Below, piece by piece: positions 7,086 to 36,018 of a DNA stretch of 64,000 nt (positions within the stretch are counted from its first letter, which is position 1; each line of letters opens with the position of its first letter). This DNA is from Cupriavidus sp. D39 (GTDB lineage Bacteria; Pseudomonadota; Gammaproteobacteria; Burkholderiales; Burkholderiaceae). The position numbers were made by a program, and so were the translations under genes. The notes under the pieces were generated by a model, which ran no database searches, was not told the origin of the DNA, and was given only the letters and a program-made list of their open reading frames with translations. Location of the stretch: the NCBI RefSeq assembly GCF_026627925.1, contig NZ_JAPNLE010000001.1:248001-312000 (forward strand), written 5' to 3'.

Positions 7086-7099
7086 AGCGCAAGCAGCCT

Positions 7100-7963: not shown

Positions 7964-8025
7964 GTAGGGTTCTCCGTTGGTGCGGTATCGGTTCCGCGGA
8001 ATGAATGCAAAAAGGGCGAAGCTGA

Positions 8026-9442: not shown

Positions 9443-9451
9443 GTCGGCGTA

Positions 9452-11309: not shown

Positions 11310-11311
11310 GT

Positions 11312-12593: not shown

Positions 12594-12596
12594 AGC

Positions 12597-13702: not shown

Positions 13703-13726
13703 GGCCTTAGCCCTGAAGGATAGGCA

Positions 13727-14484: not shown

Positions 14485-14498
14485 GGTGAGAATCTCCT

Positions 14499-17275: not shown

Positions 17276-17276
17276 G

Positions 17277-17621
17277 TCAGAATCCGGGGCAAACGGCGCC
17301 GATGCCGAAGTTCTTCAGGATGGACACGGAGGCAGCGGCGATGCCGATGCCAACGCCTGCGAACGAGACGAACTTCATGATGGTCGATTCGGCGTTGGCG
17401 ATGCCAACGGCGGCCAGCACGATGATGATGACGCCTGCGACGAAAAGGAAGGTAGTGTTGAAGAAGGTTGCAATGCCGCAGATGGTGGCGCTGAGATTGC
17501 CCAAGAAGCTGGCGTCCGCTGCAGCTGCAGGGGTGGCGATCGCCATGAGCAGCAACAAGGCAACACCAGGCGGTGTTGCCAACTGCTTCTGTGCTGCCAT
17601 GAGGGAGTTGCGGAAGGACAT
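17277..17621 (-). CDS. virB2: VirB2/TrbC-family pilin
   Basis: The major subunit of the conjugative pilus. A 114-residue precursor with a long signal region (hydrophobic VALLLLMAIATPAAAADA, cleavage likely near residue 35) followed by two transmembrane helices (FLFVAGVIIIVLAAVGIA and VSFAGVGIGIAAASVSIL) separated by a short polar loop. Size, two-helix hairpin and position between virB11 and virB3 all fit. The frame is intact, consistent with a functional pilus gene. Confidence 0.9.
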   Translation of the reverse strand: MSFRNSLMAAQKQLATPPGVALLLLMAIATPAAAADASFLGNLSATICGIATFFNTTFLFVAGVIIIVLAAVGIANAESTIMKFVSFAGVGIGIAAASVSILKNFGIGAVCPGF

Positions 17622-17638
17622 AGGTCAATAGCTCCTGG

Positions 17639-18691
17639 TTAAAAGACCCGTTTGAGAACGTAGTTGCTGTCGTCGAAGCCCTGGATCTCCAGAACTTCGG
17701 ATAGGTGACGCAGCTCGCCGGTACGGCGCATGTGGACCACGTAGTGGAAGCACTCGGCGATGAGCTTGCGCATATCGTTCAGTTCCCAGCGGGACCCTGG
17801 CGGAATGCCTAGCATTGCCATGCCCTCCAGACGGGAGAGCGCCGAGCGGGCCGTGCTCGCGTGCAGGGAGCCCATGCCACCATCGTGGCCGGTGTTCAGT
17901 GCCTGGATGAAGTCGAACGCCTCGCCGCCTCGAACTTCGCCGACAAGGATGCGGTCTGGCCGGAACCGCAGGCTAAGCGCGACCAGCATTTGAGTCGTGA
18001 CCTGCTTGTCGGTATTGCTGAGAAGACGTACCACGTTGGGAACGCTCGGCTTGAGCTCTTGCGTATCCTCAATGGTGATGACGCGTTCGGTGTCAGGAAT
18101 CTCCCCGACCAGGGCGTTGAGAAGCGTGGTCTTGCCTGAGGACGTGCCGCCGGCGACGAGGATGCTCTTTCGCTGTCGCACCAAGCCTGCCAGTGCATGC
18201 ATGACTTCGTCGTCCACCGCGTTTGGCGGGAAGATCGGGGCTTCGGCTTCGCGGCTCTTTGCGACCGCAGCGGAGAAGGCGCCCATCTTGACGTAGTCGG
18301 CCAGGGTCAGATTTGTGTCGCGGTGCCTACGGATGCTCAGTGCGTGGCCGTCGATCGCCGTCGGTCGCATCACGGCTGCGATGCGCAAGCCTTGATGACC
18401 GGCATTGATGATCCCTTGGTGCGTTCCTCTGACTGCGGACTTTTGCACGGACGACGCAAGCGATCGAACCGCGCCTTCGACCATGGCAGGATCGAGCCTG
18501 ATGTCTAGTTTGAGCAGCTGGCCCTTGCGCTCAATCCATATGCTGTCGTGGCGGTTGATCATCACCTCCGCCACCTCGGATGACTCCATGTAGGGCCGAA
18601 CGGGGGAGAGCGACTCGAAGAACATGCCGACGGCACTGTCTTCCAGTTGGCTGAGTTGTAGCGCGGGGTGGTCGAAGGCATGTGTAGACAT
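17639..18691 (-). CDS. virB11: VirB11-family traffic ATPase
   Basis: A hexameric secretion ATPase at the inner-membrane base of the channel. Motifs in order: Walker [17 protein letters not shown], Asp box ITIEDTQEL, Walker [16 protein letters not shown] and His box [14 protein letters not shown]. The frame is intact at 350 residues from the start at 18691; an in-frame ATG at 18811 would add 40 unconserved residues. It is the first gene of the long minus-strand transfer operon, and diverges from virB8 across a 481-bp gap. Confidence 0.92.
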
Positions 18692-19172
18692 GCCCGCTAT
18701 TGTTGATTCGGTACCGTGTTGGCTGATCGTCGAAAGCTCTACGATTTTCGCGAGTTTTCTCAGAATATCGAACAGGACGGCTGAGCCGCGTCCGGTTGCG
18801 TGAGAGGCCACGGCTCCGGCCGCACGGCTTCACAACGTCTGACGGGACCGCGAACCCCGGCGTCCCGGTTGCGTTTCAGGATTGCCGTTAATCATGATTC
18901 ACAGTATTCCCCAGAAAGCTCACACAAACAGGTCGCCTTTCTGGTCTTTCCTGATTGGTTGTGCCGGGAGTATCCGGATTGGCGAAGGCGAAGGACAGCG
19001 CGACGCAGGCACGGAAATGGAATTACCCCGAAAGCTGTTGAATATCACATAGCTTTTGACGGTCGGAGGGGTGGCAATTGCTGGTTCAATTAGCGGCATC
19101 CAATAGGACGCCTCATGCGACTGCTTTCCCGAAAGATCCGATTCCAAAACCGCACTGTCCCCGGCCCCCGGC
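18692..19172. other. Divergent intergenic region between the two transfer operons
   Basis: This gap separates the minus-strand operon (virB11 onward) from the plus-strand operon (virB8 onward), so both promoters should lie here. It is richer in A+T around 18890-18960 and 19015-19100 than the flanking genes. I could not identify a consensus promoter, operator or terminator with confidence, and it carries no credible gene. Confidence 0.4.
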
Positions 19173-19824
19173 ATGTACGCCGGAGAGAGCGGCGATCAGG
19201 TGATCTTCGACCGTACGACGCGACTTTCTGTCGAGCGCAATCATTGGAAGCTTGCCACGTTGGGACTGGTGGTGGTCGCTTTGGCCGCGATCCTGACCCG
19301 CCAGCCGCCCGATCCGCAGGTGCGCGCATTCGGTGTCTCCGCGGACGCCGGTGGAAAGCCGGTCGTGCGTGAGCTGGAGGCATACCAGCCCAGCAACGTT
19401 GCGATCCAAGCTGCATTCAAGGACTCTGGTGGTGCGGTGGTTCACGATTGAGCCGATTCTGACGGAGAAGATAGAGGACTCGCGGATGTCGAAGAACCTC
19501 CGTTCGGTCAAAGAGCAAATGATCGGTGCAGCGCGGGGCCAATTCGATGACTGGGTCGTCGACGATGAGCCCGCTAAGGCTGTAAGTGCATCCCCTGGCC
19601 TGACGCGTGAGCCAAAGGTGACGAACGTCTCGGTACTGCCAGACAGCACGGTAGTGGTCGACTTTGTTGCGACCACGGTGGAAGAGGGACGCAAGCCCAA
19701 GCCCACCCGTTATGCACTGACCGTGCGTTACCAGATCAAGCCTCCCACGGGCGAAGCCGTTCTCGGCCCGAATCCTTTCGGCGTGCACCCGGTCTTCTTT
19801 ACGCTTCAGAAGTCCGGCGCCTGA
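19173..19824 (+). CDS. virB8: VirB8-family inner-membrane assembly protein (frameshifted)
   Basis: A bitopic protein that nucleates the periplasmic part of the secretion channel. After a short cytoplasmic tail there is one transmembrane helix (LATLGLVVVALAAIL); the periplasmic NTF2-like domain follows, with DSRMSKNLRSVKEQMIG and RYALTVRYQI. The frame changes near 19430. Joined length is ~217 residues, usual for VirB8/TrbF. The start at 19173 has no clear ribosome site and is provisional. Followed closely by virB9. Confidence 0.75.
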
Positions 19825-19841
19825 ACATCATGGACTACTTA

Positions 19842-20720
19842 ATGCGTAACCGTCTCTCGTCGCTGGCCATCGCCGGCAGCATTGCTCTTGTTCTCTCGTC
19901 ACCGTTGGGCTTCGCAGCCGACAAGGTGGCTCGCAAAGGCCCTGGTGGCGTGCCGCCGATCGGCGTTGGCGACATCGGCGATGCGATGAATCCGTTCAAT
20001 CCATTGAACGGCGGTGCCGATCCGGTCGCCCTGCCGGCGGACTCGCGTCTCGTGGTCTTCACCTACAGCCAGGACCAGATCTTCCGCGTACTGTCGGCGC
20101 CGCTCAAGACGACGACAATCGAGTTTCCCTCGGGGGAGACGATCGCCTCTGAGCCGGCCTGGGGTGAGAACGTCCGGTGGAGCTACGACACCGATGGCAT
20201 TAACCATATCTATCTGCGGCCGCACGCGCCGGGCCTGGTCAATACGCTCTCGGTGAACACGAACAAGCGTAGCTACGAGTTCACTCTGGTGTCGTCGCCA
20301 CTGGGCGGCATGTTCTATCAGAAGGTCAGATTCAACGTGCCCGAGCCAATGATGCCGAAGGTGAAGGCGCGGGGCGGAGATGCGGCAGCGATCGGCGGCG
20401 CCGAGCCGGATCAGGCTGCGCAGCCTGCGGTGGGTGTATCGCCCGACAAACTGAATTTCGAGTACTCGGTGGGCGGCAGCGCCGACTTTCGTCCGGACCA
20501 GGTCTTCGACGACGGCAAGGCGATATGGATGCGCATACCTAAGGGCGCTGACTGGCCCGTCGCGCTAGTGAAGGACGGAAGCGACTTTGTTGTGGCGAAC
20601 TTTATCCGCCGTGGTGAGTTCCTGGTGCTGCAGCGTCTCGCCGAGAACGTGGTACTGCGCTCCGGCAATGCTGAGGTCACCGTGCAACGCGGCCGCCGTC
20701 GGCTGCTCGGTCTGTTCTGA
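19842..20720 (+). CDS. virB9: VirB9/TrbG-family channel protein
   Basis: A periplasmic/outer-membrane-associated part of the core complex. A signal peptide (MRNRLSSLAIAGSIALVLSS, cleavage near GFAA) is followed by the N-terminal CagX-type domain (DSRLVVFTYSQDQIFRVL) and a C-terminal beta domain (DKLNFEYSVGGSADFRPDQ, ending RRRLLGLF). Length is 292 residues; an in-frame ATG at 19830 would add four residues before the signal peptide. Lies 11 bp before virB10. Frame intact. Confidence 0.9.
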   Translation: MRNRLSSLAIAGSIALVLSSPLGFAADKVARKGPGGVPPIGVGDIGDAMNPFNPLNGGADPVALPADSRLVVFTYSQDQIFRVLSAPLKTTTIEFPSGETIASEPAWGENVRWSYDTDGINHIYLRPHAPGLVNTLSVNTNKRSYEFTLVSSPLGGMFYQKVRFNVPEPMMPKVKARGGDAAAIGGAEPDQAAQPAVGVSPDKLNFEYSVGGSADFRPDQVFDDGKAIWMRIPKGADWPVALVKDGSDFVVANFIRRGEFLVLQRLAENVVLRSGNAEVTVQRGRRRLLGLF

Positions 20721-20731
20721 AGGGGGCAAAG

Positions 20732-21967
20732 GTGAAGAAGACGCAGGTCGAGGACGTGACTGACGCGCAAGCTCGCGCCACCAAGGGGAAGCTTCCTCGC
20801 AATATCGTCTATTCCCTCGCAACTGTTGCCGCGGTTGATCGTTGGCGCGCTGGGGTACTACTATCAGAGCCGCAGCCATGCGGAAATGAAAGAGAAGGCG
20901 GAAGAGCAGAAAGCCGCTCGGTTGCGAGACCGCACCTCTGCGTCCAAGAACAAGGCAACAGCCTTGACCAGGAAATCCGCAAACAGCAGGAAGAGGCTCG
21001 CGCCGAGGCTGCGCGCCAGAAGGCGCTTGCCGGCAAACAGACACGAATCGGCAGGCAAGGCGCCTGTGCTGACGGCACAGGACTTTCGGTGGCAGTGCCC
21101 AGAGTCAGGGCGGAGAGGATCTTGTCCAGGAAGAACAAGGAAGACACGCTCTTCACCGCGCCGATCTTCAAAAGCGCTGGCCAGCTGAAGACTGCGCGCG
21201 CATCGAGGCAGCATGAATCCATCGGGCTTGCCTGATCCCGCGCAGATGCGCGCAATGCAACAGGCAGCTGCGGCGGGCGCTGGCGGCCTTGGCGTGCCGG
21301 CGGGTCAGGAAGCGCCGCGTCGGTGTCTAGCGATCGTCAGTTCCTGAACGAGACGTCGGCGACCCGAACCCTGCGCACCAGCTTCTCAGGCGTGCTGCCG
21401 AAGTGCACGCTGAGCCGTGGGTTCGTGATCCCGGCTACCTTCGTTGGCGGGAATAACTCGGACAAGCCAGGTGAGTTCCGCGCGACAGTGGATCAGGACG
21501 TGTACGACACGGTGGACGGGACTTGCAAGGTGATCCCGGCTGGCACGACAATGGTCGGTGCGTATAGCCCCGACATTTCCATCGGGCAGGAACGCTTGCT
21601 TGCGGCATTCATCCGGATGCAGATGCCCAGCGGAAAAGTGGTGCCGCTCCTGGGCATGCAGGGGGCCGATACCAACGGCTACGCGGGCATCAGCGGCGAC
21701 GTCGACAACCACTTCTTCAAGATCTTCTCGGGTGCCGTGATCATCGGCTTCCTGGAGCAGCGATTCAACAACACGGCGACAGCGACCACGGCAACGCCGG
21801 GCGGGCTGACCACCTACGGCAACACCGCGGGCCAGGTCGCGGCGCAGACGGCACAGACCATTCTCAACCGCAATCAGAACATCCGGCCGACCATCACCAC
21901 CAAGCCGGGCCAGAAGATGCTGGTGCAGGTCAAGCACGACATGGTTTTGGAGGCCTACCGTGATTGA
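20732..21967 (+). CDS. virB10: VirB10/TrbI-family channel protein (frameshifted)
   Basis: The scaffold that spans both membranes in the type IV secretion core complex. It starts with GTG after AGGGGG, has a membrane helix around residue 30-45 (joined frames read RLIVGALGYYYQSRSH next to it), a charged coiled-coil linker rich in K, E, A and R, and a clear C-terminal TrbI/VirB10 beta-barrel domain (FVIPATFVGGNNSDKPGEF, VYDTVDGTCKVIPAGTTMVG, GFLEQRFNN). Shifts occur near 20833, 21060, 21150 and 21320. The C-terminal domain is intact over 200 residues. Confidence 0.82.
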
Positions 21968-22780
21968 ACGCGCATGCGTCCTCGCGGCGGCGCTTGCGAT
22001 GGCGCCTGCCATCGCCGCACGCGGCGACAATCGAGGCGGTTCTCAGCCCGACCGCAGTGATCGTGCGTGCTGATGGTGCTGCGCGGCTGCTTAGTCTCGG
22101 TGGTAAGCCCGTTCTGTACTGCGGGCTGGAGCGTTTCCAAGGCTGGTCGGCCCAGCTGATCGGTGCGCAGATCGAGGCGGGCGGCGCGCAGGGCCCGGAG
22201 ATTGTCTGGGCAGGGCAGACGACGCCTCTTGCAAGCGTGTTTGCCGGTGAGGGTTGGCTGCGATCGACAGAGCTGACCGATGCCGCGCAAGAGGCGATGG
22301 TCGAGCGTCGTGGCGGCTGGGCTTGCGCACCGAAGGCTGCGCCCTTTGCGGCCATGAGCCGTCGCGTGGACCCGCTGATTCTGGCGGGCATCGCCATGAA
22401 CGAGTCTGCCTATCGCGGCCGGCCCTGGCCCTGGACGCTCAACGTTGCCGGGCGCGGCATGTTCTTCGCCACGCGCGAGGATGCGCACGCTGACGGTCAA
22501 CCGGTTGCTCGCCGCCCGGCGATGCGACTTCGACGTAGGGATTATGCAAATCAACTGGTGCTATCACGGCCAACGCTTCGCGTCGCCCTGGGAGGCGCTG
22601 GCGCCAGCGACCAACATCCGCGTGGCGGAGACGATCCTGATGGAGAACCTGCAACGGAGCGGCTCCGCGATGAAGGCCGTCGCCTGGTACCACAGCGCCG
22701 ATCCGAGCCGCGGTGGCGCCTACTTTGCTCGCTTCATGACTCACTTCAAGCAACTCGATCCGGCGACCCTTACCCAATGA
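21960..22780 (+). CDS. Lytic transglycosylase with an N-terminal nuclease-like domain (frameshifted)
   Basis: A secreted muramidase that would open peptidoglycan for the transfer machine (VirB1 role). GTG start after TGGAGG, overlapping virB10. A signal peptide (ERACVLAAALAMAPAIAA) is followed by ~100 residues that look like a staphylococcal-nuclease-type beta barrel (ATIEAVLSPTAVIVRADG, FAGEGWLRSTELTDAAQEA, VERRGGWACAP) without the catalytic residues of thermonuclease. Then the transglycosylase domain: catalytic Glu in IAMNESAY, WTLNVAGRGMFFATRED, CDFDVGIMQINWCYHG. Shifts near 22015 and 22490. The pairing of domains is unusual. Confidence 0.75.
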
Positions 22781-24009
22781 CCAAGTCCCTTATTTTCGCC
22801 GCCGCGCTGCTGCTTTGCGGAACCGTTGCCGCAGCGCCCACCGATCCGTTCGATTTCGATTATCAGGTAGTGGCGGCTTCGGCCGCCCGGCCGGCCATGA
22901 TCTTCAACGACGGCAGCAGCACCTACATCCAACCGCGCCCTGGGCAACAGGTCGTCGCGGAAGGGGGCCAGTCTTCCGGTCCGTATGTGGTACTCGATGG
23001 GGTGCCCGAGGTGGTGCGCTACACGGTGAACGGGAGCGCGGTGACGGCGCGTTGGACGCGGGCCCACGGATTCACCGGCGAACCGGCGAATCCGACTGGC
23101 GACCTGCCGCGCGCCTTCACCGGATTCAGTGGCCGGCTGGCGATGATCGGCGGCCACAACGGCCTCGCGCTTGGTGCGCCAGAGCGATGCCACCCTGGCG
23201 CTGGCGCCGATGATCAAGACCATTGCGCCGACCGGCTGGACCGGGACCGCGCAGAAGGACATCGCGCTCAGCGAGGAACTTCGCTTTGCGACCCGTGCCG
23301 GCGAGAACTGGATGCAGGCGCTCGAGCGCCTGTTGGCACAGCGCGGCCTGTATGCGGAAGTGGATTTCGACCGCAAGAACATCGCGCTGCGGGCCACGCC
23401 GCCCAAGTCTCTGGAGATCGCCGGTTCCGGTGCAATAGCGGCGGCAGCGCCAGCGGCTAGCGGCCGGCACCGGCGCCCGAGCTCGCCCTAGCGGCCTCCG
23501 ACGCCAGCGAGGCCGATGGCTCTGCGCTTAACGCCGCCTTTAACGCGGAGGCCATTCGCGACAACAGGGCCGGTCGCATTGAGATGCGCTTCCCGGCGAA
23601 GCCGACGAACCTGCTGGTGCAGGGTGAGGGCGGGCGCGAGATCGATACCGATTGGAATGAAGCCGAGAAGGTGTTGTCCTTCCGCACCGCCGACCGGTTC
23701 ACTGTGCGTGGTGGGGGCAAGGCTGTTGAGGTCGCAAGGGTGCCCGGCATTGCCTATCAATTCCCCCGCGATAACGCGGTTGGCTTGGAACGCGTCTTCG
23801 AGAAGGACGGGGCCACCTACCTGAGTTTCCGCCAATCGTTGATCGCGGTGTCGGTGCGGGATGAGGCCAACCAGTCGAATGGTGAGCACAAGGACCGGTA
23901 CTACAAATACAACGGCATCAGCGCTCGTCTGATGGTGACGGCTGACGGCAAGACGGTCAACGTGACCCGCCAGCCAGAAGTCCGTTTCTATGAGCGGGCG
24001 GCGTCATGA
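22777..24009 (+). CDS. Secreted TcpQ/VirB9-like pilus-assembly protein (frameshifted)
   Basis: A ~410-residue periplasmic protein with signal peptide (MTKSLIFAAALLLCGTVAAA). An N-terminal region (FNDGSSTYIQPRPGQQVV) and a C-terminal beta region (IAYQFPRDNAVGLERVFEKD) resemble CagX/VirB9 domains; between them WTGTAQKDIALSEELRFAT plus AGENWMQALERLLAQRGLYA resembles the TcpQ domain of PilL. Shifts near 23175 and 23460. Its ATG overlaps the transglycosylase stop (ATGA), as does its own stop with the next gene. It probably links the conjugation and thin-pilus gene sets; exact role unknown. Confidence 0.5.
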
Positions 24010-24464
24010 CGCGTCTGCTCAAGCGGGTGTCGCCGCTGGTGGCTCTGGTGCTCTCCCTCTGTGGACCGAGCTTCGGCTGGGCGGACTGCCTGGACGATGC
24101 CGCTGCGTTCCACCATGTGAGTCCGGTGTTACTGCGCGGCATCGCGCAGCACGAGTCTGGGATGCGGGCCGATGCCATCAATCGCAACACCAACGGCAGC
24201 GAGGATATCGGTCTGATGCAAATCAACACGGTGCATCTGCCAAGGCTCGCCCGATTCGGCATCACCCGCCAGTCGCTGTTCGAGCCTTGCACGAATGCCT
24301 ATATCGGCGCGTGGATTCTGCGAGAGAACCTGGATCGATACGGGCCAACTTGGGATGCGGTGGGAGCCTACAACGCGGCCTCACCGGATAAGCGTCTCAA
24401 GTACATCAACCGTATCTACAGCACGCTCCAGCGCGCAGCACCGGCCAACCAAGCCACTAGATAA
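24006..24464 (+). CDS. Lytic transglycosylase (PilT/VirB1-like SLT domain)
   Basis: A 152-residue secreted SLT-type muramidase. Signal peptide (LVALVLSLCGPSFGWA), then the catalytic Glu in GIAQHESGMRADA, the motif GLMQINTVHLPRL and the C-terminal AYNAASPDKRLKYINRIY block. Such enzymes (PilT of R64, VirB1) let pili cross the cell wall. It overlaps the upstream gene by 4 bp and stands ahead of the PilL-like gene. This is the second transglycosylase within 2 kb, suggesting one per machine. Confidence 0.88.
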   Translation: MTRLLKRVSPLVALVLSLCGPSFGWADCLDDAAAFHHVSPVLLRGIAQHESGMRADAINRNTNGSEDIGLMQINTVHLPRLARFGITRQSLFEPCTNAYIGAWILRENLDRYGPTWDAVGAYNAASPDKRLKYINRIYSTLQRAAPANQATR

Positions 24465-24480
24465 CCGAAGGTAACAAGTC

Positions 24481-25086
24481 ATGCTTCCTATTGATCAGAT
24501 GCGCCGGTTGAGCCGGACTGTTCTTGCCGTGAGCGCGTTGTACGTGTGTCTCGGTGCCCATGCGGCCGTGCCGTCCGCGACGCCGTTCGGCATTGAACCG
24601 ACAGGCAACTTCGAGCCCGCGGCGCCGCTCAAGGGCGATGGCTGGCAGCGTCTCGCTGCAAACACGAAGGCGAAGTCCTCCAAGGCGGCGGGGCCGGCGG
24701 TGCCCGCCGCTAGCGATATCGCCCCCGCGTCGGGTCCGCCTGTTTTGGCCACGTCGCAAGTCGGTGCGGCGTCGGCAGGGGCTGCAACTGTCGTGGCGAG
24801 CAACGCTGCGGCGCCTGCCGCCTGGACCGTGTCGGCGACGGACGGGAACTACCGGCAGCTGATCGAGGCGTGGGCTACCCGTGCAGGGTGGACGGCCGCA
24901 CCGTGGGAACTCGATAAGGATCTTCCGATTGTGGGGAACGACTCGTTCCAAGGTGACTTTAAGGCAGCGGTGCGTCACGTCTTGGAGGCGACCGAACTCA
25001 CCGACTACAAAGTGAAGCCGTGCTTCCACTCCAACAACATGGTGCGCGTAGTGAAGCTGACCACCAAGTGCGACCTGACTCAGTAA
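24481..25086 (+). CDS. TcpQ-domain pilus protein (PilL-like)
   Basis: A 201-residue periplasmic protein. Signal peptide up to about residue 29 (ALYVCLGAHAAV), an alanine/proline-rich linker, then a TcpQ-type domain from about residue 120 (NYRQLIEAWATRAGWTAAPW, FKAAVRHVLEA). TcpQ domains assist the outer-membrane secretin of type IVb pili; in R64 this is the C-terminal part of PilL. AAGGT is well placed eight bases before the ATG. It precedes the secretin gene by 7 bp. Confidence 0.75.
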   Translation: MLPIDQMRRLSRTVLAVSALYVCLGAHAAVPSATPFGIEPTGNFEPAAPLKGDGWQRLAANTKAKSSKAAGPAVPAASDIAPASGPPVLATSQVGAASAGAATVVASNAAAPAAWTVSATDGNYRQLIEAWATRAGWTAAPWELDKDLPIVGNDSFQGDFKAAVRHVLEATELTDYKVKPCFHSNNMVRVVKLTTKCDLTQ

Positions 25087-25093
25087 GGCCAGA

Positions 25094-26892
25094 ATGCAAA
25101 TGAACCGAATCTTTCGACCCACCGCCGTCGCCTTGCTCGTATGTTCGACACTGGCCGGTTGCGTCTCGCCGCGCCTGCTCGAGGATACCAGGCAGGCTGC
25201 CGAGGACACCCGGGCCCAAGGCGATGCAATGACTAGTCGCGCTCTATGCCCGGATGCGCCGCGACCGCGCCGCCGTTGAGGCTGAACAGGAAGTGTCCAA
25301 GCCTTTCCTCGTGGGCAGGGCGGTTCCCACAGCGCGAAACGTCACCCTCCCGCTCGCGTTGCGCAACAACGTCGACACATGGGTGATCTTTCCCGAGCGC
25401 GTCACGCCGCTGGCGGTAGCCGGGCAGCGCATCACGATGGCGACCGGGATCCCGGTGAAGGTCGAATCGGATGTCTATCTCCCGGCAAGCATGTTGCTGC
25501 CGCGCAGCATGATGTCGCAGGCCGGGCAGCTTGTCGCGCAATCAGCAGGCCGGGGGCGCGATGCCGCAGGCGATGCCCGTGCTGGGCCAGGCACCTGCCC
25601 TTGGTGCTCCGCTTCCGACCGGCCTGTTGGGCGGCACTCCCAGCATGGCTCAAGTGACACCGCTGGTGGAAAGCGCGTTGAACGTTGAATTCAAGAACAG
25701 CGAGAAAATGCCGCTCGCCAACATGCTCGATCTGATTGCGACGCGCCTGGGCATCAATTGGGAATACAGCGCCTCCAAGGGCGTGATCCGCTTCTACCGC
25801 CTTACTACCAAGACCTGGCAGTTGCCGATGAAGTCGGGCACCAGTTCATTTACCACGGAGTTCAAGGAAAGCGCCCGCGGCGCGAGCGGTAGTTCTGGGG
25901 GTAGCGCCGGGCAGACAGCGAAGATTGACGGTGCGGTGAAGTCGGAGAGCAAGGACATTGATGACCTGGACGGTATCAAGAAGAGCATCGTGCCAGCCAT
26001 GTCGATGGTGGGCAGCGCCGAGATCAACCCAGCCACCGGCATTCTGACGCTGCGTGATACGAAAGAAGCCGTCGACGCGGCCGACGAAATCGTGCGTCGC
26101 CAGATCGCTATCTATTCGCGGATGGTCTACCTGAAGTTCCAGACGGTCGATTTCACGATCACCGACAACGGCGAGGCTGGGATGGACTGGAATGCCGTGC
26201 TCACCAAGGCGCTGGACCGTGTGCCGGGCTTCACCTTCAGTGCGCTTTCGCCAGCGTCGCTGGTTTCGTCCAGTGCCGGCAGCTTTGGCCTTGGGATCAC
26301 CTCGGGCGGATGGAATGGCACGCAGGCGATCGTGACTGCGCTGAAGCAGTACGGCACTGTTACGACGTCCGTTGCTGTTCCGCTGGCGATGCGTAACCGC
26401 CACGCAGCGCAGTACAACAACCGTCGCGAGTTTGCCTATGTGTCGGCCACCACGCCGGCGGCATCGACAGTTGGCGGGACCGGCGGTACACCGGGCATCA
26501 CCACGTCCACGGGTACCGTCGGCTTCAAGCTCACGGTGTTTCCGGATGCGACTTCACGCGACGACGTCAACCTGACGTTGGCATTCGACCAGTCGGCCCT
26601 CGACGGCCCGATCCAGACGTTCACCTCGGGCAGCGGCGTGAATCAGCAGTCCGTGCAAGTGCCAAAGACGATTGCCAAGGGCATTCCGGCGCAGGACTTG
26701 ATTGTGCGCAACGGGCAGACGGTGATCGTGACCGCGTTCGATCAGACGGATACGCAGATGACGCACCGCACACTCGCGGACTTGCTCCCGACGATCGCCG
26801 GCGGCTCGCTCACCGCGACGAAGTCCCGCACCCTGACGTTGGTCTTGGCCACCGTGATGATTGAAGATCAGGGCGAGGCCCCAGCGCAATGA
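25094..26892 (+). CDS. pilN: PilN-type secretin lipoprotein of a type IVb pilus (frameshifted)
   Basis: The outer-membrane ring through which the thin pilus passes. An N-terminal lipobox (LVCSTLAGC) is followed, after a shift near 25235 and another near 25545, by the N-domain (PLANMLDLIATRLGINWEY) and the C-terminal secretin core (KFQTVDFTITDNGEAGMDW, AVPLAMRNRHAAQYNNRREF, VGFKLTVFPDATSRDDVNL). Length ~598 residues agrees with R64 PilN and BfpB relatives. It overlaps pilO by 4 bp (ATGA). Confidence 0.85.
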
Positions 26893-28232
26893 TTCTCGAC
26901 ATCCACGGCAAAAAGCTGGTTTTCGGCATGCAGTGGCGCACGCTGACCGGCAGCGGTGCGCCCGCGACGCTGGCGGCCAATATTGCGCGGGAGGTTAAGG
27001 CCACGCGTATCTGGCACGAGGATCAGTCGCTTCACATGGGCTATCTGGACGCCGCTGACGGCCAGGCCAAGATCAAGGACAAGCTGTACTCAGGGGCTGC
27101 CACGCTGGCCCGCATCCCTGACGTCGTGCCCAATGCGTTCTTTGTGTTCCGCCTGGACGCGCCTGGCCAGCCACCGATCTATCTGGTCTGCGGCATCGTC
27201 AAAGGCCGCCCGCGCGTGGGCTTCGATCAGGTGGTGCACGACGAGAAGACGCTCGCCCAGCTTGCGGCCGAGTTCCCGACGAAGTGCGATGGTGACTTCA
27301 AGCTGGTGGGCAACGCGCCGGAACTGATGGCCCTGCTGCCGAACGATCGCCGGATTACCCACATTCCGTTCGCGCTGGAAGCCCTGGCCTCGCAAGCCGG
27401 CCCGGGGGCGCTGCTGAAGAAGCCGGGCGCCACCTCGCAGCGTAAGCGGCTGCTGCTGCTCGCGGTGCTCGCGCTGGTGGGCGCCGCCGGGTGGAAATAT
27501 GGCAAGGGCGGAGTATGACGCTTACCAGCGCCGGTTGCATCCGCCGCCGCCCCAGAAGTCGCCCGCGGAGCGCTATGCCGAGGACCTGGCCCAACGGGCG
27601 GCGATGCCGGTCGCCCCGGCCGGCGCCGCGATGGCCGCATGGTATCGCTGGTTTGCCGATTCGGCGCCGTTGCAGATCGGGGGCTGGACGCTTACGACCA
27701 TCGTTTGCCATGACGTGACCACGCCGGAGACACCGTGCGTGCTGACTTATGAGATTCAGCAGGGCGCCAAGGGCCTGACGAATCGGACGTTCCTGGACGC
27801 GCTGCCGGATCACTTTGGTGCACCGACTTTCCTGGCTGGCGACACCAAGGCCTCGGTGCCGGCGCAATTCCCCTGGGCGCCAGGACACCCCTTGCGACGG
27901 TGCTGGAGACGCTCCCCACGGCCATGGACCTGAGGGTTCACTTCGGGTCCCAGCTGCAGGCGCTATGGCCGGTCTCGGCCAAGGCGGAACTCAAGGAGGT
28001 GGCCATTTTTGGCACGGTGCCCGCGGAAGGGGCCACTTCCCTGGCGCATCCGGTTGTATCCGGTGCCTGGGAAATCACCGGTCCGCTACGCAACCTGAGT
28101 GAGTTCAAGGGGTTCGGCCCGCAGGTCGTGGTGAAGACCATTGAGCTGGCCGTGAACCTGAACGCGGTTCCTGACATTAAGCAATCGAAATTCATGTTGA
28201 CGGTCAAGGGCGATGCCTTTGCGCGCAACTGA
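26889..28232 (+). CDS. pilO: PilO-type pilus accessory protein (frameshifted)
   Basis: A ~447-residue bitopic protein of type IVb pilus systems. The cytoplasmic N-terminal domain (ILDIHGKKLVFGMQWRTLTG) is followed by a membrane helix (KRLLLLAVLALVGAAGWKY, about residue 185-203) and a periplasmic domain (SAPLQIGGWTLTTIVCHDV, AELKEVAIFGTVPAEGATS). Shifts lie near 27510 and 27885. The size and position between pilN and pilP match R64 PilO, which links the inner-membrane platform with the secretin. Confidence 0.75.
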
Positions 28233-28246
28233 GAAGGAAGACTGAA

Positions 28247-28882
28247 ATGCGTGCTTATCCGATGACATACCGCCGCGCGAGCGCGGCGCTGGTCGCTCTC
28301 CTTGCCTGCGGCGCGGCCGTTGCCGATGATGACCGGTCGCTCACCCAGAAGCTGATCGAGGCCGACGGCAAGGTTGCGCTGCAGAAACTCGAGCAGGACC
28401 TTGCCAAGACGGCGCCGCCCCCGGCCCTGTCTGCGGCCCCTGCTGGCGCCGCGACCGGCAAGGTACACGAGCGCTCCCCGCAGACGATCGCCCTTTATGG
28501 CGTCGATGGGCGCGCTGCCGGCGGCGCCGTGACCCTGCGCAGCTACGTGCGTTGGGGCGATCAGGTCTACCCTGCGCGGGTTGGCGCGAATTGGCGGGGC
28601 TTTACCGTTGCCGACATCACCGAGGCCGGCACGACGTTCGCGCGAGGCAAAACCAAGGTGTTTGCCCCGTTGGTGCAGGACGACGCGGCTGTACTGCTGG
28701 ATTCCCGGCGGGACGGGGGTGCCGAGGCGGGGCAAGCCAGGCAAACCGCGCCGCTGCCGGCACCCGTTCCCGCCATGATGCCGGGGTTCCCGCCGCCCCA
28801 GACGCCTCTGCCGGCGCCGCAACTGCAGCCGACGATCTCGACGCCGCCGATGGCAGCGCCTGCGTCCGTGGCCCAACGGTGA
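28247..28882 (+). CDS. pilP: PilP-type pilus assembly protein
   Basis: A 211-residue periplasmic protein with signal peptide (SAALVALLACGAAVADD) and a small beta domain (around VHERSPQTIALYGVDGRA and YVRWGDQVYPARVGANWRG), ending in a proline/alanine-rich tail. It matches type IV pilus biogenesis PilP of R64-like systems, which interacts with PilO and the secretin. AGAAGGAAG precedes the start. The frame is intact and the stop overlaps the ribosome site of pilQ. Confidence 0.75.
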   Translation: MRAYPMTYRRASAALVALLACGAAVADDDRSLTQKLIEADGKVALQKLEQDLAKTAPPPALSAAPAGAATGKVHERSPQTIALYGVDGRAAGGAVTLRSYVRWGDQVYPARVGANWRGFTVADITEAGTTFARGKTKVFAPLVQDDAAVLLDSRRDGGAEAGQARQTAPLPAPVPAMMPGFPPPQTPLPAPQLQPTISTPPMAAPASVAQR

Positions 28883-28893
28883 GGGGCGCCGTG

Positions 28894-30726
28894 ATGGGAC
28901 TGTTCAGCAGGCGCGACCGCGCAGATGCCAACGTGGCCGGCGTAGGCGGTGTGACCGTCCTTACCGGCGCCGCGCCGGGCTTTGCCGCGCAGTCGCCTTC
29001 GAGGGAGCCGAGCTTAGGGGGCGCAGGTGCCCCCGTGGCCGCCACACCCCATGGGGCGGTGGAAGAAATTGGTACGGTGGACGACCTTCCCGTGTTTGTC
29101 AGGACGCTCTACGACGAACTCGACATGGCGCCCTCGCTGCGGCACGCCATTTGTCCAGTGCTGGTCGAGCCCGCCGCCGGGCCCGGCTCGCGTGGACAAT
29201 TCGCGCTGGTGGTGTCCCGCGACATGGCCACGTCGGACGAGGCCGAGGAGATCATGCGGCAGGCGCGCCTGCTGTATGACCAGGCATCGCCCGCCACCCA
29301 CGTCGCGGCCACGCAAGTCATGGTTGCCCTGTCCCGGGGCAGCGTTGATCCCCGAGGTGGCGTCGAGATCGATCACGCGCTCGGCCGCCGGCGCCCGGCA
29401 AGCGCCCTCTGGCACAACTTTGAGGCCGCGGCCCGCTTTGCGCTGCGCGAAAAGGCGTCCGACATCCATTGGGAGGTGGAGGACCAGGGCACGCATTCGC
29501 AGATCCGGTTCGCCATCGACGGCTATCTCGTTGCGCCCGCAGAGTTCCGGATGGAGACGGGGGTGATGCTCGATACCCTGTCCCATATCTGGCAGAAGGG
29601 CAAGGGCGGCTCGCAAGGGGTGTTCAGCCGGAGCCTGCCGCAACAGACCAGTATCCGCACCCGCATTGACGGTGAGGCTCTCGTGTTTCGCTGGGCCTCG
29701 ATGCAGAGCGCAACGGGCCATGTGACCGTGATGCGGATGCACCGGGAAGAAGCGCAATCGCTGGAGGTGGATTTCGTCAAGGACCTGGGGTACTTCGAAC
29801 AGCAGGCCCATCTGCTGGACCGAAACACGATGCACCTCGGTGGCGGCACTGTTCTCGTTGGCGTCGTTGGCTCGGGCAAGACCACCACGGCCCACGCGAT
29901 CATGCAGCGACAGCCGGGGTGGATGAACAAGATGGCCATCGAGGATCCGGTGGAGCTGCTTGCCAAGGGCACGCACCACTTCTCCGTGTCGCGCACGCTC
30001 GACGGTGCGAACCGGGATGAAGATCCCTTTATCGCGGCCAAGCGCCAGATCAAGCGGATGAACCCGCATTTTGTGATGGTGGGGGAACTCCGTGACCACG
30101 AATCGGCGGGCCTGTTTCGGGACGTGGCGGGCGCGGGGCTGCGCGCGCTGACGACAGTCCACGCGCCGAGTGCGCTGACGGCGGCGGACCGGCTGTCGGA
30201 CGGTGAACTGCGCATTCCACGCAGCGTCCTCGCCACGCCCGGTTTCATCAATCTGTACGTCTATCAGGCATTGATGCCGAAGACCTGCAGTTGTGGCCTC
30301 CGGCACACGGCGATGAAGGAGGCGATCGGCGCGAGAAAGCTGCAGCAGATTGAGCGCCTCTTCCGCTTCGATATCGAAGGCATCCGGCTGCGGAACCCGC
30401 AAGGGTGCGAGCTTTGCCAGCGTCCGAATCTGCCGGAGCTGAACGGCGCCCGCGGCAGGACCGTGGTGGCCGAGATGTTCGAGCCCGACGAGCAGGACCT
30501 GGCCTATATCCGCGACGCCAAGAACATCGAGTTGGCGGCTTACCAGCGCAGCAAGCGCCAGGTCGGCTTCGACGTGCCAGACAGCACCGGGAAAACCGTG
30601 TTCGAGGTCGCCATGTACAAGGTCTTTGCCGGCGTGGTGGACCCGCGTGAGGCGGAGCGTCTGTGCTCGCTCGACGCCTACGAAGCCAGACTTGCCCGCC
30701 AGCGTGCGCGCGGCGAAAAGCACTGA
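28894..30726 (+). CDS. pilQ: PilQ-type pilus assembly ATPase
   Basis: The cytoplasmic motor ATPase that powers assembly of the thin pilus (PilB/GspE superfamily). In order: an N-terminal domain, Walker A VGVVGSGKTTTAHAIM (about residue 330), Asp box MAIEDPVELL, Walker B PHFVMVGELRDHES, His-box-like TTVHAPSALTAADR, and a Cys-rich zinc-binding-like segment (CSCG and CELC). Intact 610-residue frame; the start ATG at 28894 is preceded by GAGGGG. An adjoining GTG at 28891 is possible. Confidence 0.88.
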   Translation: MGLFSRRDRADANVAGVGGVTVLTGAAPGFAAQSPSREPSLGGAGAPVAATPHGAVEEIGTVDDLPVFVRTLYDELDMAPSLRHAICPVLVEPAAGPGSRGQFALVVSRDMATSDEAEEIMRQARLLYDQASPATHVAATQVMVALSRGSVDPRGGVEIDHALGRRRPASALWHNFEAAARFALREKASDIHWEVEDQGTHSQIRFAIDGYLVAPAEFRMETGVMLDTLSHIWQKGKGGSQGVFSRSLPQQTSIRTRIDGEALVFRWASMQSATGHVTVMRMHREEAQSLEVDFVKDLGYFEQQAHLLDRNTMHLGGGTVLVGVVGSGKTTTAHAIMQRQPGWMNKMAIEDPVELLAKGTHHFSVSRTLDGANRDEDPFIAAKRQIKRMNPHFVMVGELRDHESAGLFRDVAGAGLRALTTVHAPSALTAADRLSDGELRIPRSVLATPGFINLYVYQALMPKTCSCGLRHTAMKEAIGARKLQQIERLFRFDIEGIRLRNPQGCELCQRPNLPELNGARGRTVVAEMFEPDEQDLAYIRDAKNIELAAYQRSKRQVGFDVPDSTGKTVFEVAMYKVFAGVVDPREAERLCSLDAYEARLARQRARGEKH

Positions 30727-30736
30727 GGGGATCGGC

Positions 30737-33022
30737 ATGTTCAACAAACTTGCACAGTGGCTGGTTGGGGTGGCCCAACGCAAGCTCGGTGGCCCGATGC
30801 TGAAGGCAGGCGATCAGGTCTTCATGGATCGCCTGTTCTGGGCCAAGTATCGCTTCCGCAGCATGCGAGCGACGTACTACGGCGATCTGGCGAAACGGAT
30901 TCTTCATATGCCGGGGGAGCCGGTCTCCAACCATTTCGCCAAGGATGCGGCGCGACGCGTCGGCGAGCCGGTAGGGGTGCTCGCGGCACACTGGCTTGCG
31001 CGGTCCGAAGGGATCGACGGCCAGATGCAGCGCTCGCGTCTGACCGAGATCTTCCGGGGCACCGTGCCTGACGAGGACATTCCCATTCTTGCCGTCGCGG
31101 AAGAGGGTGGCGACATTCGGGAGGGCCTGGAGACGCTCTCGCGCAACCTTAGTGCCTTGGGCGAGGCGCGCGCTGGCATTGCCATGACGCTAGCCGGCGT
31201 GGTCATGACGGTGTTGATCCTGCACGCCTATCTCGGTGCCCTGGCCCTCCTGATCGGCCCGGCCATCGACAAGTCGTTCAGCGCGATGCTGGATGTGAGC
31301 CAGTACGGTCCCATTGCATCCACCTTCCATCACGCCTCGACCTTCTTGCGGCATTGGGGGTGGTTGCTCGTGTTGGCCGAAGTTGCCGCCGGCGTCTGGA
31401 TTGTTCGGGCACTGACCCGCTATGTGGGGCGCTATCGCGGGTGGCTGGATCGACGGATGCTCGCGTTCGATTTCTTCCGCCGCTTTCAGAGCGCGCAGTT
31501 CCTGGCGGGGCTTTCCGCAGTGACCAAGAAGTTCGGTGGGGATGCACGCAACCTGTTGGACGGGCTGGTGCTGATGCGTGCCAATGCCTACCCGTACCTA
31601 GCGTATCACATCGAGCGCATCGAGCTCAACCTGGAGTATGCGCCCAACGAAGGCGGCAAGGTCTTCGACACCGGCCTATTCGACCGGGATACCAGCTACC
31701 GGATTCAGGACATCGCAGAGTACGAGAGCGACCTGTCGAAGATGCTGCATACCGTTTCGGAGGACTTGCTGAAGACCACTCCGCAGTTGATGCAGCAACG
31801 CGCGTCTCGTTTCAATCGGCGCGCAACGATCATCCTGATCGTGATCATCACCGCGCTGGCCTTTATGCCTGCCTTCATGGCGCAGGGGACTTTTAGTCAT
31901 GAGCCGCCGGGCACGCTGGACCTGTTCCGCCTCATCGGGGCACGGTATCCGGTCTATGTCGCGGATCGCATCCACCAGGTGGCGCTGCGTGCGGGCGTCT
32001 TCATCCCGTCGGAGGGACCGCTGTTCAGCCGGCTCGAACTGGACCGGCTGGTGGCCGGCGGACTGCCGGACGTGGTCTTTACCTGCGTCCCGACGGTCAA
32101 CAAGGCCATGCTGGCGTCGGTGGTCGGTGTTGCCGCGGCCGCTACGGCCCTGGGGGACCATTTATCTACGTTCCTGGTTGCCATCGGCGCCGTGAATCAA
32201 CAGCTGCGTGGCTTCGGCATCCGGACGGTCGGTGTGTCCCATGGCACGGTGAATGGCTGTCTCACCGAGCACGGCGTGCCGATGGCAGGCTTCGATCACG
32301 AGTTCACGCTCGGATCCCTGTTCGCGGCGGAATGCGATGCCTTCCTACTGGGCCACATCCACCGCTGCCAGCAATGGGAGCGGGAGGGGCGAGTCGTCGC
32401 GTATCCGGGATCGATCGGACGCTTTCATTACGGAGAGGAAGGTGAGAAGTCCTACCTCCAATGGTCGGTGGCACCAGGCAATGCGGTGGCCACGCCGGTC
32501 GTGACGCCAGCTCGGGAAACGGTCTGCATCGACTTCAATGGTCCGCCTGACATGGACCAGCTTGCCTTGGCGGCCGCAACTGCCGACGACAAGTTCATCC
32601 GCATCCGGTGGACGATCGATGAAGAGCACCGTCAACTGGTGGATCGTGACGCAATCTGCGCGCTGTTCGGCGCAGCCGCCGAGCTGAAGCTGGAAGGCCG
32701 GGTCTTGCCAGCGGTACGAAGCCGTGCCGAGGGCATCAGCCGGGCTGCGACGCTGGCCGAGAAGGTGGAACGCTGGGGCGAGCTCGCCGCGGTTGATACC
32801 TCCCGTCTGTTGGACTATCTGCCCGTGCTGGAGAGCCTGGACGCTCAGGCCATCGTGGATCTGGAGCTTGCCGAACTGGCGGACGCGGTTGTGCCGGTGG
32901 TGAGCGCTGCTCCTGCCCCGGCGGGGCCGGCATTCGCACCGCCAGCGCCAGCACCTACGCTTGCTACCGCGCCAGCGCTCGATTGGCTGTCCGACGATCT
33001 GTTTGCCGGCGAGCCGGCCTAA
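30737..33022 (+). CDS. Chimeric protein: PilR-like platform protein fused to an SbcD-like nuclease C-terminal part
   Basis: A single open frame of 761 residues. Residues 1 to ~380 are PilR/GspF-like, the inner-membrane platform of type IVb pili, with helices around GIAMTLAGVVMTVLILHAYL, WGWLLVLAEVAAGVWIV and ATIILIVIITALAFMPAFM. From about 31885 the protein changes to an SbcD/Mre11-like metallophosphoesterase: GTFSHEPPGTLDLFR, VGVSHGTVNG and the GHIH metal motif. The nuclease N-terminus (motifs DxH and GDxxD) is missing. Starts after GAGGGG. A deletion joining pilR to sbcD would explain it and would have removed the pilin, prepilin peptidase and related genes. An assembly join is the alternative. 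Confidence 0.75.
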   Translation: MFNKLAQWLVGVAQRKLGGPMLKAGDQVFMDRLFWAKYRFRSMRATYYGDLAKRILHMPGEPVSNHFAKDAARRVGEPVGVLAAHWLARSEGIDGQMQRSRLTEIFRGTVPDEDIPILAVAEEGGDIREGLETLSRNLSALGEARAGIAMTLAGVVMTVLILHAYLGALALLIGPAIDKSFSAMLDVSQYGPIASTFHHASTFLRHWGWLLVLAEVAAGVWIVRALTRYVGRYRGWLDRRMLAFDFFRRFQSAQFLAGLSAVTKKFGGDARNLLDGLVLMRANAYPYLAYHIERIELNLEYAPNEGGKVFDTGLFDRDTSYRIQDIAEYESDLSKMLHTVSEDLLKTTPQLMQQRASRFNRRATIILIVIITALAFMPAFMAQGTFSHEPPGTLDLFRLIGARYPVYVADRIHQVALRAGVFIPSEGPLFSRLELDRLVAGGLPDVVFTCVPTVNKAMLASVVGVAAAATALGDHLSTFLVAIGAVNQQLRGFGIRTVGVSHGTVNGCLTEHGVPMAGFDHEFTLGSLFAAECDAFLLGHIHRCQQWEREGRVVAYPGSIGRFHYGEEGEKSYLQWSVAPGNAVATPVVTPARETVCIDFNGPPDMDQLALAAATADDKFIRIRWTIDEEHRQLVDRDAICALFGAAAELKLEGRVLPAVRSRAEGISRAATLAEKVERWGELAAVDTSRLLDYLPVLESLDAQAIVDLELAELADAVVPVVSAAPAPAGPAFAPPAPAPTLATAPALDWLSDDLFAGEPA

Positions 33023-33129
33023 CCTTTGAGCATGCAAGCCATGTTCCGATAGCCCTACGGGGTTATCGAAACCCGGTTTTCCCCGCGTCTTTGACGCATC
33101 GACCCGCTGTATCCATCTTCTTCCCTTGA

Positions 33130-33182: not shown

Positions 33183-33710
33183 ATGATTCTCTATCCTGCC
33201 GGCCCGGAATGGACCCATACGTTTGACGCTGCCATCGCCGCGTCGGAAATGGCCGCGCGTGTCACAAACGGCCACGGCTTCACACGCAGCACGCTGTTCC
33301 AGCCTTTCGGCGCGGGACGGGGTGCCGTGATTGCGCAGCGGGACCACATCCTGCTTATGGCATTGCATACCGACGGTGGCCACGGCTGGTTCTCTGTGGC
33401 ACCGTCACTGGCGCTGCAGCAGCTGCTCTGGTCCCTGTCCAACGGGCTGACCAGCCAGTGGAGCGAGCGTGAGCTGAAGATCCTGACCGGCTGCCGCACT
33501 TGGCCGGAAGTAGCCAACCTGGTTGGCAAGCAGTACGCCGCCGCGGTAGGTTCGGTTGAGCGTGCGTTGCAGGGACTGCCGGAAGCGGAAACGCCACCGG
33601 TGTCCGCTCTGTTACCGGAAATGCCCGTGGATGAGTCCGGGTTGCTGGAATTGCCTGGCAACTACATGGCCTACATGCAGACCGATGAGGAGCTGTCATG
33701 CGCCCGCTGA
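33183..33710 (+). CDS. Conserved protein of an SbcCD-like operon, function unknown
   Basis: A 175-residue soluble protein without signal peptide or membrane segments. I do not recognise a domain. The N-terminal part contains FDAAIAASEMAARVTNGHGF and the middle GHGWFSVAPSLALQQLLWSL, both with regular helix-like periodicity. The start has GGAG seven bases upstream. Its stop overlaps the start of the SbcC-like gene by 13 bp, so it is translated with it, and may be a partner of that nuclease complex. Confidence 0.6.
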   Translation: MILYPAGPEWTHTFDAAIAASEMAARVTNGHGFTRSTLFQPFGAGRGAVIAQRDHILLMALHTDGGHGWFSVAPSLALQQLLWSLSNGLTSQWSERELKILTGCRTWPEVANLVGKQYAAAVGSVERALQGLPEAETPPVSALLPEMPVDESGLLELPGNYMAYMQTDEELSCAR

Positions 33711-36018
33711 AGCTGACCCTTTCGGGATTCCATGGAGTGCGCGACGGCATGCGCCGCGATAGCGTTACCCTGGACCTGAGCGACCTGCCAACCGGCTTGA
33801 TCGCGTTGGTGGGCCCGAACGGGGCCGGCAAGACGACGCTGATGGACAACCTCCATCCGTACCCGATCATGCCCAGCCATGCCTCTAAGATGTCTGCGGA
33901 CGCGTTTTCTTACTGGGACCATCTCTGCGCCCCGCGCGCTGAGAAGGAACTGGTCTGGGAGCACGGCGGCAAGACTTACCGGTCGGCATTCTCTTTCCGT
34001 AACTCTGGCAAGACGCGCAAGGCAGAGTACTACCTGTTCGAGCGCGACGCTGCTGGCAATGATGTGCCGCTCCGCTTGCCGGACGGGACTGTCTCCGATG
34101 GGAAGGCCGATACCTACAACCGTTGTCTGGAAGGGGTCATGGGTTCGCCCGAAGCGTTCTTCACGAGCGTGTTTTCTGCGCAGAACCGGCGTCCGCTGGC
34201 CAGCTACCAGACCGGCGAGATCAAGAAGCTGCTGGCCGAGCTGCTGGGCATCGAGCACCTTCGGGAGCTGTCGGCGAAGGCCGGCGAAGTGGCCAAGCTG
34301 CTTGGCCGCCATCTGGATGCCCTCCAAGGCGATGTGGTTGCCCTCATGGGCAAGCGCGATCGCGGTTCCGTGCTGGCCGGGGAGATTAGGCAGATCGGCG
34401 AACGCCTGGGTGCTGAGCGGGAAGCGCGGGAGCGCGAGACTGCCAACGGCGCCAGTTGCTGCAGGAACGGGCCACGCTGGCGGCCAAGCAGTCCGCCGGC
34501 GCCGCTGTCGAAGCCCGCTTGCGGGAGCTTGACGCAGCGCCAAAGCGAATTGACGTCGCGCGACCGCCAGCTGGTGGCCGATGACAAGGCTGCCGGCAGT
34601 CGCGCAGCCTCGCGCCGGCGCGAGCTGGATAGCCAGGTCATCGCCCGCACGGCGACGCTTGCCGATGGTGATGCGATCACTGCCGCGGTGGGTCGGCGCG
34701 ATGCCGTGCAGATGGAGATCGGCCGCAGTCAGGCCGAGCTCACAAAGCTGCAGAAGTCGGTCACGGAGCTGGAAGCCGTACGACTGGCGCATGCATCCCT
34801 TTCCACTGAGCTGGCAGGCCTGGAAGCCCGCGGCGCCACCGAGGCGCAGCTGGCGAAGGGTCTCAAGGGGCAAGCGGTTGTCATTGGGACCGTGCCGTGT
34901 GCGGACCATCCCATGCATGCTGCGTGCCCGTTGCTGGGCCAGGCCCGCGACGCGAAAGCGAAGCTGGACCGCCAGGTGGTGCTGGTGACAGACCTTCGGA
35001 GCAGCTACCGCGCCAAGCTGGAGGCCAAGAAGCCAATGGATCTTGCCTTGGCCACCCTGGCTAGCGCCCGTGCCGCCCACACCACGCTGCAGGCCGGCAT
35101 GGTGCAACAGGAGCGAGAGCTGCAGCGCCTGACGGCGCTGGCCGTCAAGCTGCCATTGCTGGAGGCCGCCCGGGAGGGCTTGGCCCAGGCAACACGTGAT
35201 ATTGCGACGCTGGCTGAAGAGGAAGCGGCGCGTCAGACCCGGCATGCCCGGGATCTGGCCGACGTGGAATCGCAGTCCGCTGCGGTGCAGCGGGAGTTGG
35301 CGACGCTGGCCACGGAAGACGTGACCGGCAAGCTGGCCCAGCTGGATCGCCAAGTGACTGCCAGCCGGGAGGCTGTTGCGGCCCTGGATGCCCGTGTCGA
35401 GGCGCTCATCCGCCAGCAAAGCACGCTGGCGGCGGAAGTGGAGCGGCTTGAGGCGGAGTTGGCAGGTCTGCCGGCGGCGCAGGGCAGGGCGCAAGCGCTG
35501 TCCGATCGCATTGCCGTATGGAAGCTGTTGGCGAAAGCCCTCGGCAATGATGGCGTCATCGCGCTATCCATCGATGACGCGGGTCCCGAGCTGACGCGGA
35601 CCGTGAATGACCTGTTGCTGGCTTGTTACGGACCGCGATTCACTATCGCGATCCAGACGCAGACTGCGCTGGCCAATGGCGAGAAGCGCGAGGGGTTCGA
35701 AATCGCTGTGCAGGATGGCGATAGCGGCGAATCGAAAAGCTTCACTGTCATGTCTGGCGGCCAAAAGATCTGGATCAACGAGTGCCTGACCCGCGGCATT
35801 GCGCTCTACCGAGCGCGGGACACGGGGCAGGTCTTCCAGACCCTTTTACCGACGAGGCAGACGGGCCGTTGGACCCGGGTCGCAAACGCGCCTTCATGCA
35901 GATGAAGCGCGAAGTGCTTCGCCAGGGCGGGTATCAGCGTGAGTTCTTCATCTCGCACACCCCCGACTCAGTCGACGAGGCCGATGCAGTGATCGACGTG
36001 GCGGCCCTCGCGGCCTAA
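33698..36018 (+). CDS. SbcC/Rad50-like ATPase (frameshifted)
   Basis: An SMC-type ATPase expected to pair with an SbcD-like nuclease in processing DNA ends and hairpins. Walker A VGPNGAGKTTLMDNL (about residue 39), then long alanine/glutamate-rich coiled-coil arms with a possible zinc-hook variant (VPCADHPMHAACPLL) midway, ABC signature region FTVMSGGQKIWINE, and after a frameshift near 35838 the D-loop region DEADGPLDPGRKRAF and FISHTPDSVDEADAVID. Two compensating shifts near 34445 and 34555 hide a natural coiled-coil segment. Joined length ~770 residues. Confidence 0.8.

Follow-up and report, generated by a model that had tools for sequence, protein, structure and literature searches.

An in-frame pilR–sbcD chimera at a probable deletion junction, present in two plasmid lineages of one Cupriavidus genome

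How does a pilus gene come to run, without interruption, into a gene for a nuclease, and is the resulting protein more than an accident? The question is raised by a locus of Cupriavidus sp. D39, located in a stretch of 64,000 nucleotides that we refer to as the window in the following; it lies on contig C1, and further contigs of the same genome are numbered accordingly. An earlier note, made from the sequence alone, had described a 761-residue chimera in which a PilR-type protein continues as an SbcD-like nuclease. This chimera is real, as judged both by its open frame and by sequence comparison. In the translation of the open reading frames of the window, the forward-strand frame at 30737-33022 comprises 761 codons and no stop, or 859 codons when the upstream open stretch is included. 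As a gene, the chimera is ordinary; what is notable is its join, which a second plasmid lineage of the genome shares. The features of the locus are collected in Table 1.

Table 1. Coordinates of features around the join, in positions of the window.
Feature	Position	Strand	Remarks
Replication initiation gene (Rep3_C), kept	766..2163	+	Profile match
Conjugation and pilus backbone	5443..31886		Collinear with C8 (from 5554), C6 and pBB2
PilN-like secretin piece	25561..26892	+	Pfam Secretin on overlapping frame from 25531
PilQ-like secretion/pilus ATPase (T2SSE)	28879..30726	+	Directly upstream of the chimera
PilR-like part, T2SSF domain	30737..31881	+	Residues 1-381, to 383 inside the overlap
Putative deletion junction	31882..31886	+	Five bases common to pilR (C8) and sbcD (C1:61 kb)
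SbcD-like part	31887..33022	+	From residue 84 of intact SbcD (motif III) to the stop; without motifs I and II
Small conserved gene between sbcD and sbcC	33183..33710	+	No Pfam match
SbcC-like ATPase	33698..35905	+	Interrupted relative to the C1:62.9 kb copy

The first half of the chimera resembles the PilR/T2SSF platform proteins of conjugative plasmid type IVb pili, of whose about 407 residues it keeps 383 (reference: the 407-residue copy on C2), and differs from them in that the last ~24 residues are exchanged for a 378-residue SbcD tail. It scores above the Pfam cut-off for T2SSF, the domain expected of a PilR pilus platform protein, with 25.5 bits at residues 272-375 against a cut-off of 25.2; the intact PilR of C2 reaches 31.7 bits in the same search.

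The second half is 92% identical to an intact SbcD encoded at C1:61 kb and starts at residue 84 of this 461-residue protein. Its Metallophos_2 match stays below the cut-off, and so does that of the intact protein, with 19 bits. In an alignment of 12 sequences, the intact SbcD shows DLH (residue 15) and GDSTDH (residue 49), which we take to be motifs I (DxH) and II (GDxxD/H) of Mre11/SbcD nucleases; the alignment of the GD segment to the T. maritima enzyme is weak. Both segments are common to the intact SbcD proteins of the alignment, with small variations, and both are absent from the chimera. Since they precede residue 84, they were lost at the join, in keeping with the earlier description of a nuclease half lacking its first metal motifs. 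The later motifs GTFSHE, SHG and GHIH are all present and aligned. Measured against the SbcD/Mre11 metallophosphoesterase nucleases (plasmid SbcD; T. maritima SbcD, 2q8u, and relatives), the chimera thus aligns from motif III onwards, its GHIH region matching the solved enzymes weakly (E 0.003), but it lacks the first two metal motifs and is placed behind a membrane protein. Because these motifs are missing, it should have no nuclease activity; from its residues, the SbcD part is probably a catalytically dead tail.

The window tracks the pilR gene of C8 to base 31886 and the sbcD gene of C1:61 kb back to base 31882, and the crossover lies inside or at the edge of these five shared bases. By the same comparison, the in-frame join had been placed correctly, near 31885, in the earlier note. 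By chance alone, one join in three would be in frame. We rejected a recombination site defined by shared sequence, as only four or five bases match exactly, which is unexceptional within 3 kb. In the window-type lineage, the junction sits in a 16/22 imperfect repeat, and 565 of 35.7 million registers are as good. In the lineage of C6, which carries the second copy of the join, the match at the junction is equalled or bettered by 224,848 of the 35.7 million 22-nt registers within 3 kb. Over 500 nt to either side, 5,278 pairs of 4-mers are shared, 1,675 of them in the same frame register.

What the undeleted arrangement looks like can be seen in pBB2 of C. necator N-1 (NC_015724.1), where pilR (392436-393662) and the SbcD gene (308585-310006) are separate, intact genes on one strand, 82 kb apart. 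The interval holds pilS, the adhesin gene, ssb, a primase gene, an integrase-domain gene, PRTRC genes and catabolic cargo. In two further Cupriavidus plasmids, NZ_CP017759 and NZ_CP073678, the two genes lie about 45 and 51 kb apart, as estimated from match positions. The window shares the gene order and strand of the pil operon and of the sbcD-sbcC region of pBB2 on both sides of the join, with 76.5% identity up to C1:279886 and 70.5% from C1:279882. To follow the interval, we searched (E up to 1e-8) with a chosen subset of 38 of the about 90 proteins annotated in two pBB2 stretches, cargo excluded; 32 of the 38 are encoded between pilR and sbcD.

Within the genome itself, 31 of these 32 interval proteins are found on C8, read downwards, and on C1, read upwards from its start, in pBB2 order and ending in sbcD, a small gene and sbcC. 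C8 and C1 may thus belong to one plasmid; since they are separate contigs whose 3.1-kb overlap is only 95% identical, this intact plasmid is a putative one. The order pilR-pilS-adhesin is intact on C8 and C2 (pilS of C2 is in two pieces), and an intact sbcD with motifs I and II lies at C1:60.8 kb. The intact pilR-pilS-to-sbcD arrangement that the earlier note had suggested seeking among plasmids is therefore found in pBB2 as well as on other contigs of this genome, and the order in pBB2 and on C8/C1 supports its proposal of a deletion that joined pilR to sbcD and truncated the nuclease.

At the window locus (C1:208-352 kb), the flanks are collinear with the undeleted relatives, over about 26 kb on the pilR side of the join and about 4 kb on the sbcD side, and the intervening genes are absent: among the 32 interval proteins, only PRTRC ParB finds a match at E up to 1e-8, at 33%, which is probably the window plasmid's own ParB. 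We consider the locus, with a probability of about 0.8, to be derived by deletion from a pBB2-like conjugative plasmid backbone, judging by gene order and sequence. The deletion would have removed about 80 kb, starting ~24 codons before the end of pilR and ending near codon 83 of sbcD, and with it pilS, the pilus adhesin gene, ssb, the primase gene and the PRTRC module; the comparison shows that the replication gene and the conjugation genes were kept, and the in-frame join leaves one continuous gene. The opposite origin, insertion of a pil region into sbcD, was rejected: a search of the genome located just one N-terminal half of SbcD, at C1:60852, and with full-length SbcD as the query, neither the window locus nor the C6 locus yielded a start of the protein.

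Several genes of the conjugation machinery are recognizable at the window locus, namely TraD, which scores over the cut-off, and VirB9- and VirB10-type genes by Pfam; VirB4- and VirB11-type genes fall below the NCBIfam cut-offs. The pilus ATPase gene still adjoins the chimera, and the pilin gene is gone with the deletion. That genes normally following pilR are missing, as the earlier note had stated, holds for pilS and the adhesin gene, neither of which was found at the window locus; the absence of a prepilin peptidase gene says little, because none is annotated just after pilR in the (incomplete) gene table of pBB2 either. The destruction of thin-pilus production, which the note had offered as a consequence, is unsupported for the cell, since C8 and C2 both have pilS and the adhesin gene and PilR has lost only its last ~24 residues. 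The PilR part is complete through the last long hydrophobic stretch and may still work as the platform of a pilus whose pilins come from sister plasmids. Relatives of PRTRC ParB, at 66-68%, are encoded at C1:22.8 kb and, in part, on C7; with these and pilS on sister contigs, the cell has, by gene content, not lost the functions. The cell may have tolerated the loss of the PRTRC/ssb/primase block because such a block is still present on sister replicons. Just downstream of sbcC, the window encodes a histone-like protein (36667-37104, reverse strand; Bac_DNA_binding) with an alanine/lysine-rich N-terminal tail, followed by a group II intron reverse transcriptase/maturase over the NCBIfam cut-off (38492-39985), in a stretch 97% identical to C1:65.6-69.7 kb.

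The same join, at the same five-base interval, recurs at C6:369.3-371.6 kb in another plasmid lineage, with a frame that is interrupted in the assembly. By BLAST, the collinearity of C6 with the window covers positions 19030-36089 as a single piece (77%) and continues as shorter pieces as far back as 5443; none of the 32 pBB2 interval proteins was found at C6:320-420 kb (E up to 1e-8). The SbcD part of the C6 copy is 71% identical to that of the window. Its own relatives are found in Burkholderiaceae bacterium 16: C6:370479-383336 and C6:383563-397112 match contig 60 of this organism at 93.9% and 91.5%, C6:366065-370480 matches its contig 62 at 95.3%, and the C6 join falls between the matches to the two contigs. 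Trees were built from 14 pilR and 38 sbcD sequences; matches shorter than 800 and 850 nt had been removed beforehand, as had identical sequences and 11 duplicate locus ids. In these, the window SbcD half pairs with C1:61 kb and that of C6 with Burkholderiaceae bacterium 16, in separate clades. The pil genes (window 25001-32000), compared with C8, C6 and contig 60 of Burkholderiaceae bacterium 16, form a mosaic of two lineages, in which C8 turns from window-like to C6-like towards pilR.

Outside this genome, we found no such fusion. Among the matches listed in 59 other genomes of the genus, none spanned the join (E up to 1e-60), and a 121-residue junction query found no fusion in 397 other genomes of the family (E up to 1e-26); the two sets overlap, and the collections searched may leave out this genome's own records. 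The 105 matching proteins found, from 7,995 candidates scored, included no fused one: the best query coverage was 60%, by a 456-residue protein, and the longest had 487 residues. P0002 and P0107 of the protein collection proved to be relatives and not the exact proteins of this genome. No plasmid record covered 80% of the query among the 40 listed of 74 with a match. Among the best 80 of 210 loci, six had matches reaching over the join (with query ranges such as 298-760, 316-757, 347-755 and 348-757). Four of the six were examined (L053, L055, L060 and L062) and proved to be SbcD N-termini weakly aligned to the pilR part; L061, L080 and a similar plasmid match, H21, were left out. One mixed alignment likewise apparently places SbcD rows over the PilR half. 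Two pattern matches in viral contigs (L158, L159) showed no detectable protein similarity to the query and were taken as chance. A literature search found no published sbcD-pilR fusion, and nothing that brings together at least three of the four topics plasmid deletion, gene fusion, microhomology and megaplasmid.

A simple one-off deletion does not explain the second identical junction, which would call for either the spread of a junction between plasmids or a deletion-prone spot. We lean slightly, and with low confidence, towards the spread of one junction over two deletions. Such a history, to which we give somewhat less than an even chance, would begin with one deletion, after which the junction passed between sister plasmids of one cell by recombination, for instance by gap repair on the deleted template; the flanks would stay typical of their lineages because the exchange ends where homology ends, at the junction. 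In its favour, two lineages share one five-base interval, and no genome other than this one is known to have the join. The mosaic beside the junction agrees with it as well: C8 and C6 are 68-79% identical over window positions 7001-25000, but 91-95% identical over 27001-32000. The 16/22 imperfect repeat would make the window lineage a plausible birthplace. The difficulty lies on the sbcD side, where C6 is of the Burkholderiaceae bacterium 16 type from the first distinguishing base past the join, so that the transferred tract could extend there by only a few bases. In addition, the two fusions differ by a dS of 0.60 over pilR but 1.32 over sbcD, which excludes inheritance from one fused ancestor in the absence of recombination.

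The tentative alternative, which we place well below even odds, is that two deletions occurred separately at a site that is prone to deletion or recognized by an enzyme. This would explain why the halves match their own undeleted lineage on both sides, i.e. C8 and C1:61 kb for the window and contigs 60 and 62 of Burkholderiaceae bacterium 16 for C6. However, given the few shared bases and the number of registers within 3 kb that are as good, foremost in the C6-type lineage, it is unlikely that two deletions coincided by pure chance, and the many 4-mer pairs nearby, including those in the same frame register, add to this. Moreover, the genome contains neither a reciprocal product nor a second SbcD N-terminal half, and no known site was recognized. 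A more specific proposal, which we regard as unlikely, is a repeatable excision, by an unrecognized site-specific recombinase or a defined repair pathway, that sheds the PRTRC/ssb/primase block in cells with sister plasmids, always within the same five bases, and leaves the same in-frame chimera in different lineages. If spread is true, a large deletion can pass between co-resident plasmids by recombination; if a fixed excision point is true, this plasmid family sheds its maintenance block. Either reading would bear on the coexistence of several related megaplasmids in one Cupriavidus cell.

Could the junctions instead be absent from the cell and owed to the assembly? The assembly does contain base-level errors. 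Of three chromosomal controls, used because counts of long-homopolymer indels, considered as a cause of the frameshifts, were mixed and hard to read across diverged sequences, two are broken: carB is in two pieces (C9:1808420-1811598) and dnaE in three (C9:4722080-4725181), while rpoB is whole. As carB and dnaE are very unlikely to be broken in a living cell, the single-base breaks would be assembly-wide sequence errors, and the same may apply to the interruptions of the C6 copy. This undoes the contrast drawn in the earlier note between the clean frame of the chimera and its FRAMESHIFTED (frameshifted) neighbours; with such errors throughout the assembly, a clean frame of 2.3 kb is unremarkable. 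The note had also held that relatives without this exact fusion, and with the missing genes assembled at this place, would count against it. The relatives searched do lack it, but the same junction on C6 of this genome argues against an assembly slip. The errors and the restriction to one genome notwithstanding, we therefore judge an artefact distinctly improbable: the same join is seen at two loci with clearly different SbcD parts, the collinearity with undeleted relatives extends, at each join, over about 26 kb on the pilR side and about 4 kb on the sbcD side, and, to our knowledge, assemblers do not usually err by joining sequences over four or five shared bases. C9 is the largest contig seen, with positions up to 4.7 Mb, and besides its dnaE copy, further DnaE-type polymerase genes are found on plasmid-bearing contigs, at C1:90351-93296 and C6:205194-207722.

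The dN/dS ratio is 0.030 for the pilR half (window versus C8) and 0.132 for the SbcD half (window versus C1:61 kb), where the low value could reflect the time before the fusion or continued constraint. Polarized with Burkholderiaceae bacterium 16, the SbcD half shows 13 nonsynonymous and 13 synonymous changes on the window branch and 10 and 20 on the C1 branch; two other outgroup sets give 12/11 versus 8/11 and 11/9 versus 7/12. At most, these raw counts would point to a slight relaxation, and they give no sign of a new function. That the fused protein was itself selected, as a membrane-anchored SbcD fragment working with SbcC or the pilus machinery, is very improbable, for although the two copies agree in frame and codon at the join and each half has a low dN/dS, the chimera lacks motifs I and II, the window branch is if anything relaxed, and the fusion was not found among the 105 matching proteins or the 59 other genomes of the genus. 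The chimeric protein is most probably an ordinary relic.

Lastly, contig C1 carries two related replication initiation genes with 34% identity (C1:248766-250160 and C1:652350-653525) and two copies of the sbcD-sbcC region (61 kb and 280 kb), so that it may be a cointegrate of two plasmids. It also contains a 2.3-kb inverted repeat with 99.9% identity (C1:141768-144036 and C1:236401-238668), which is probably a recent insertion element.
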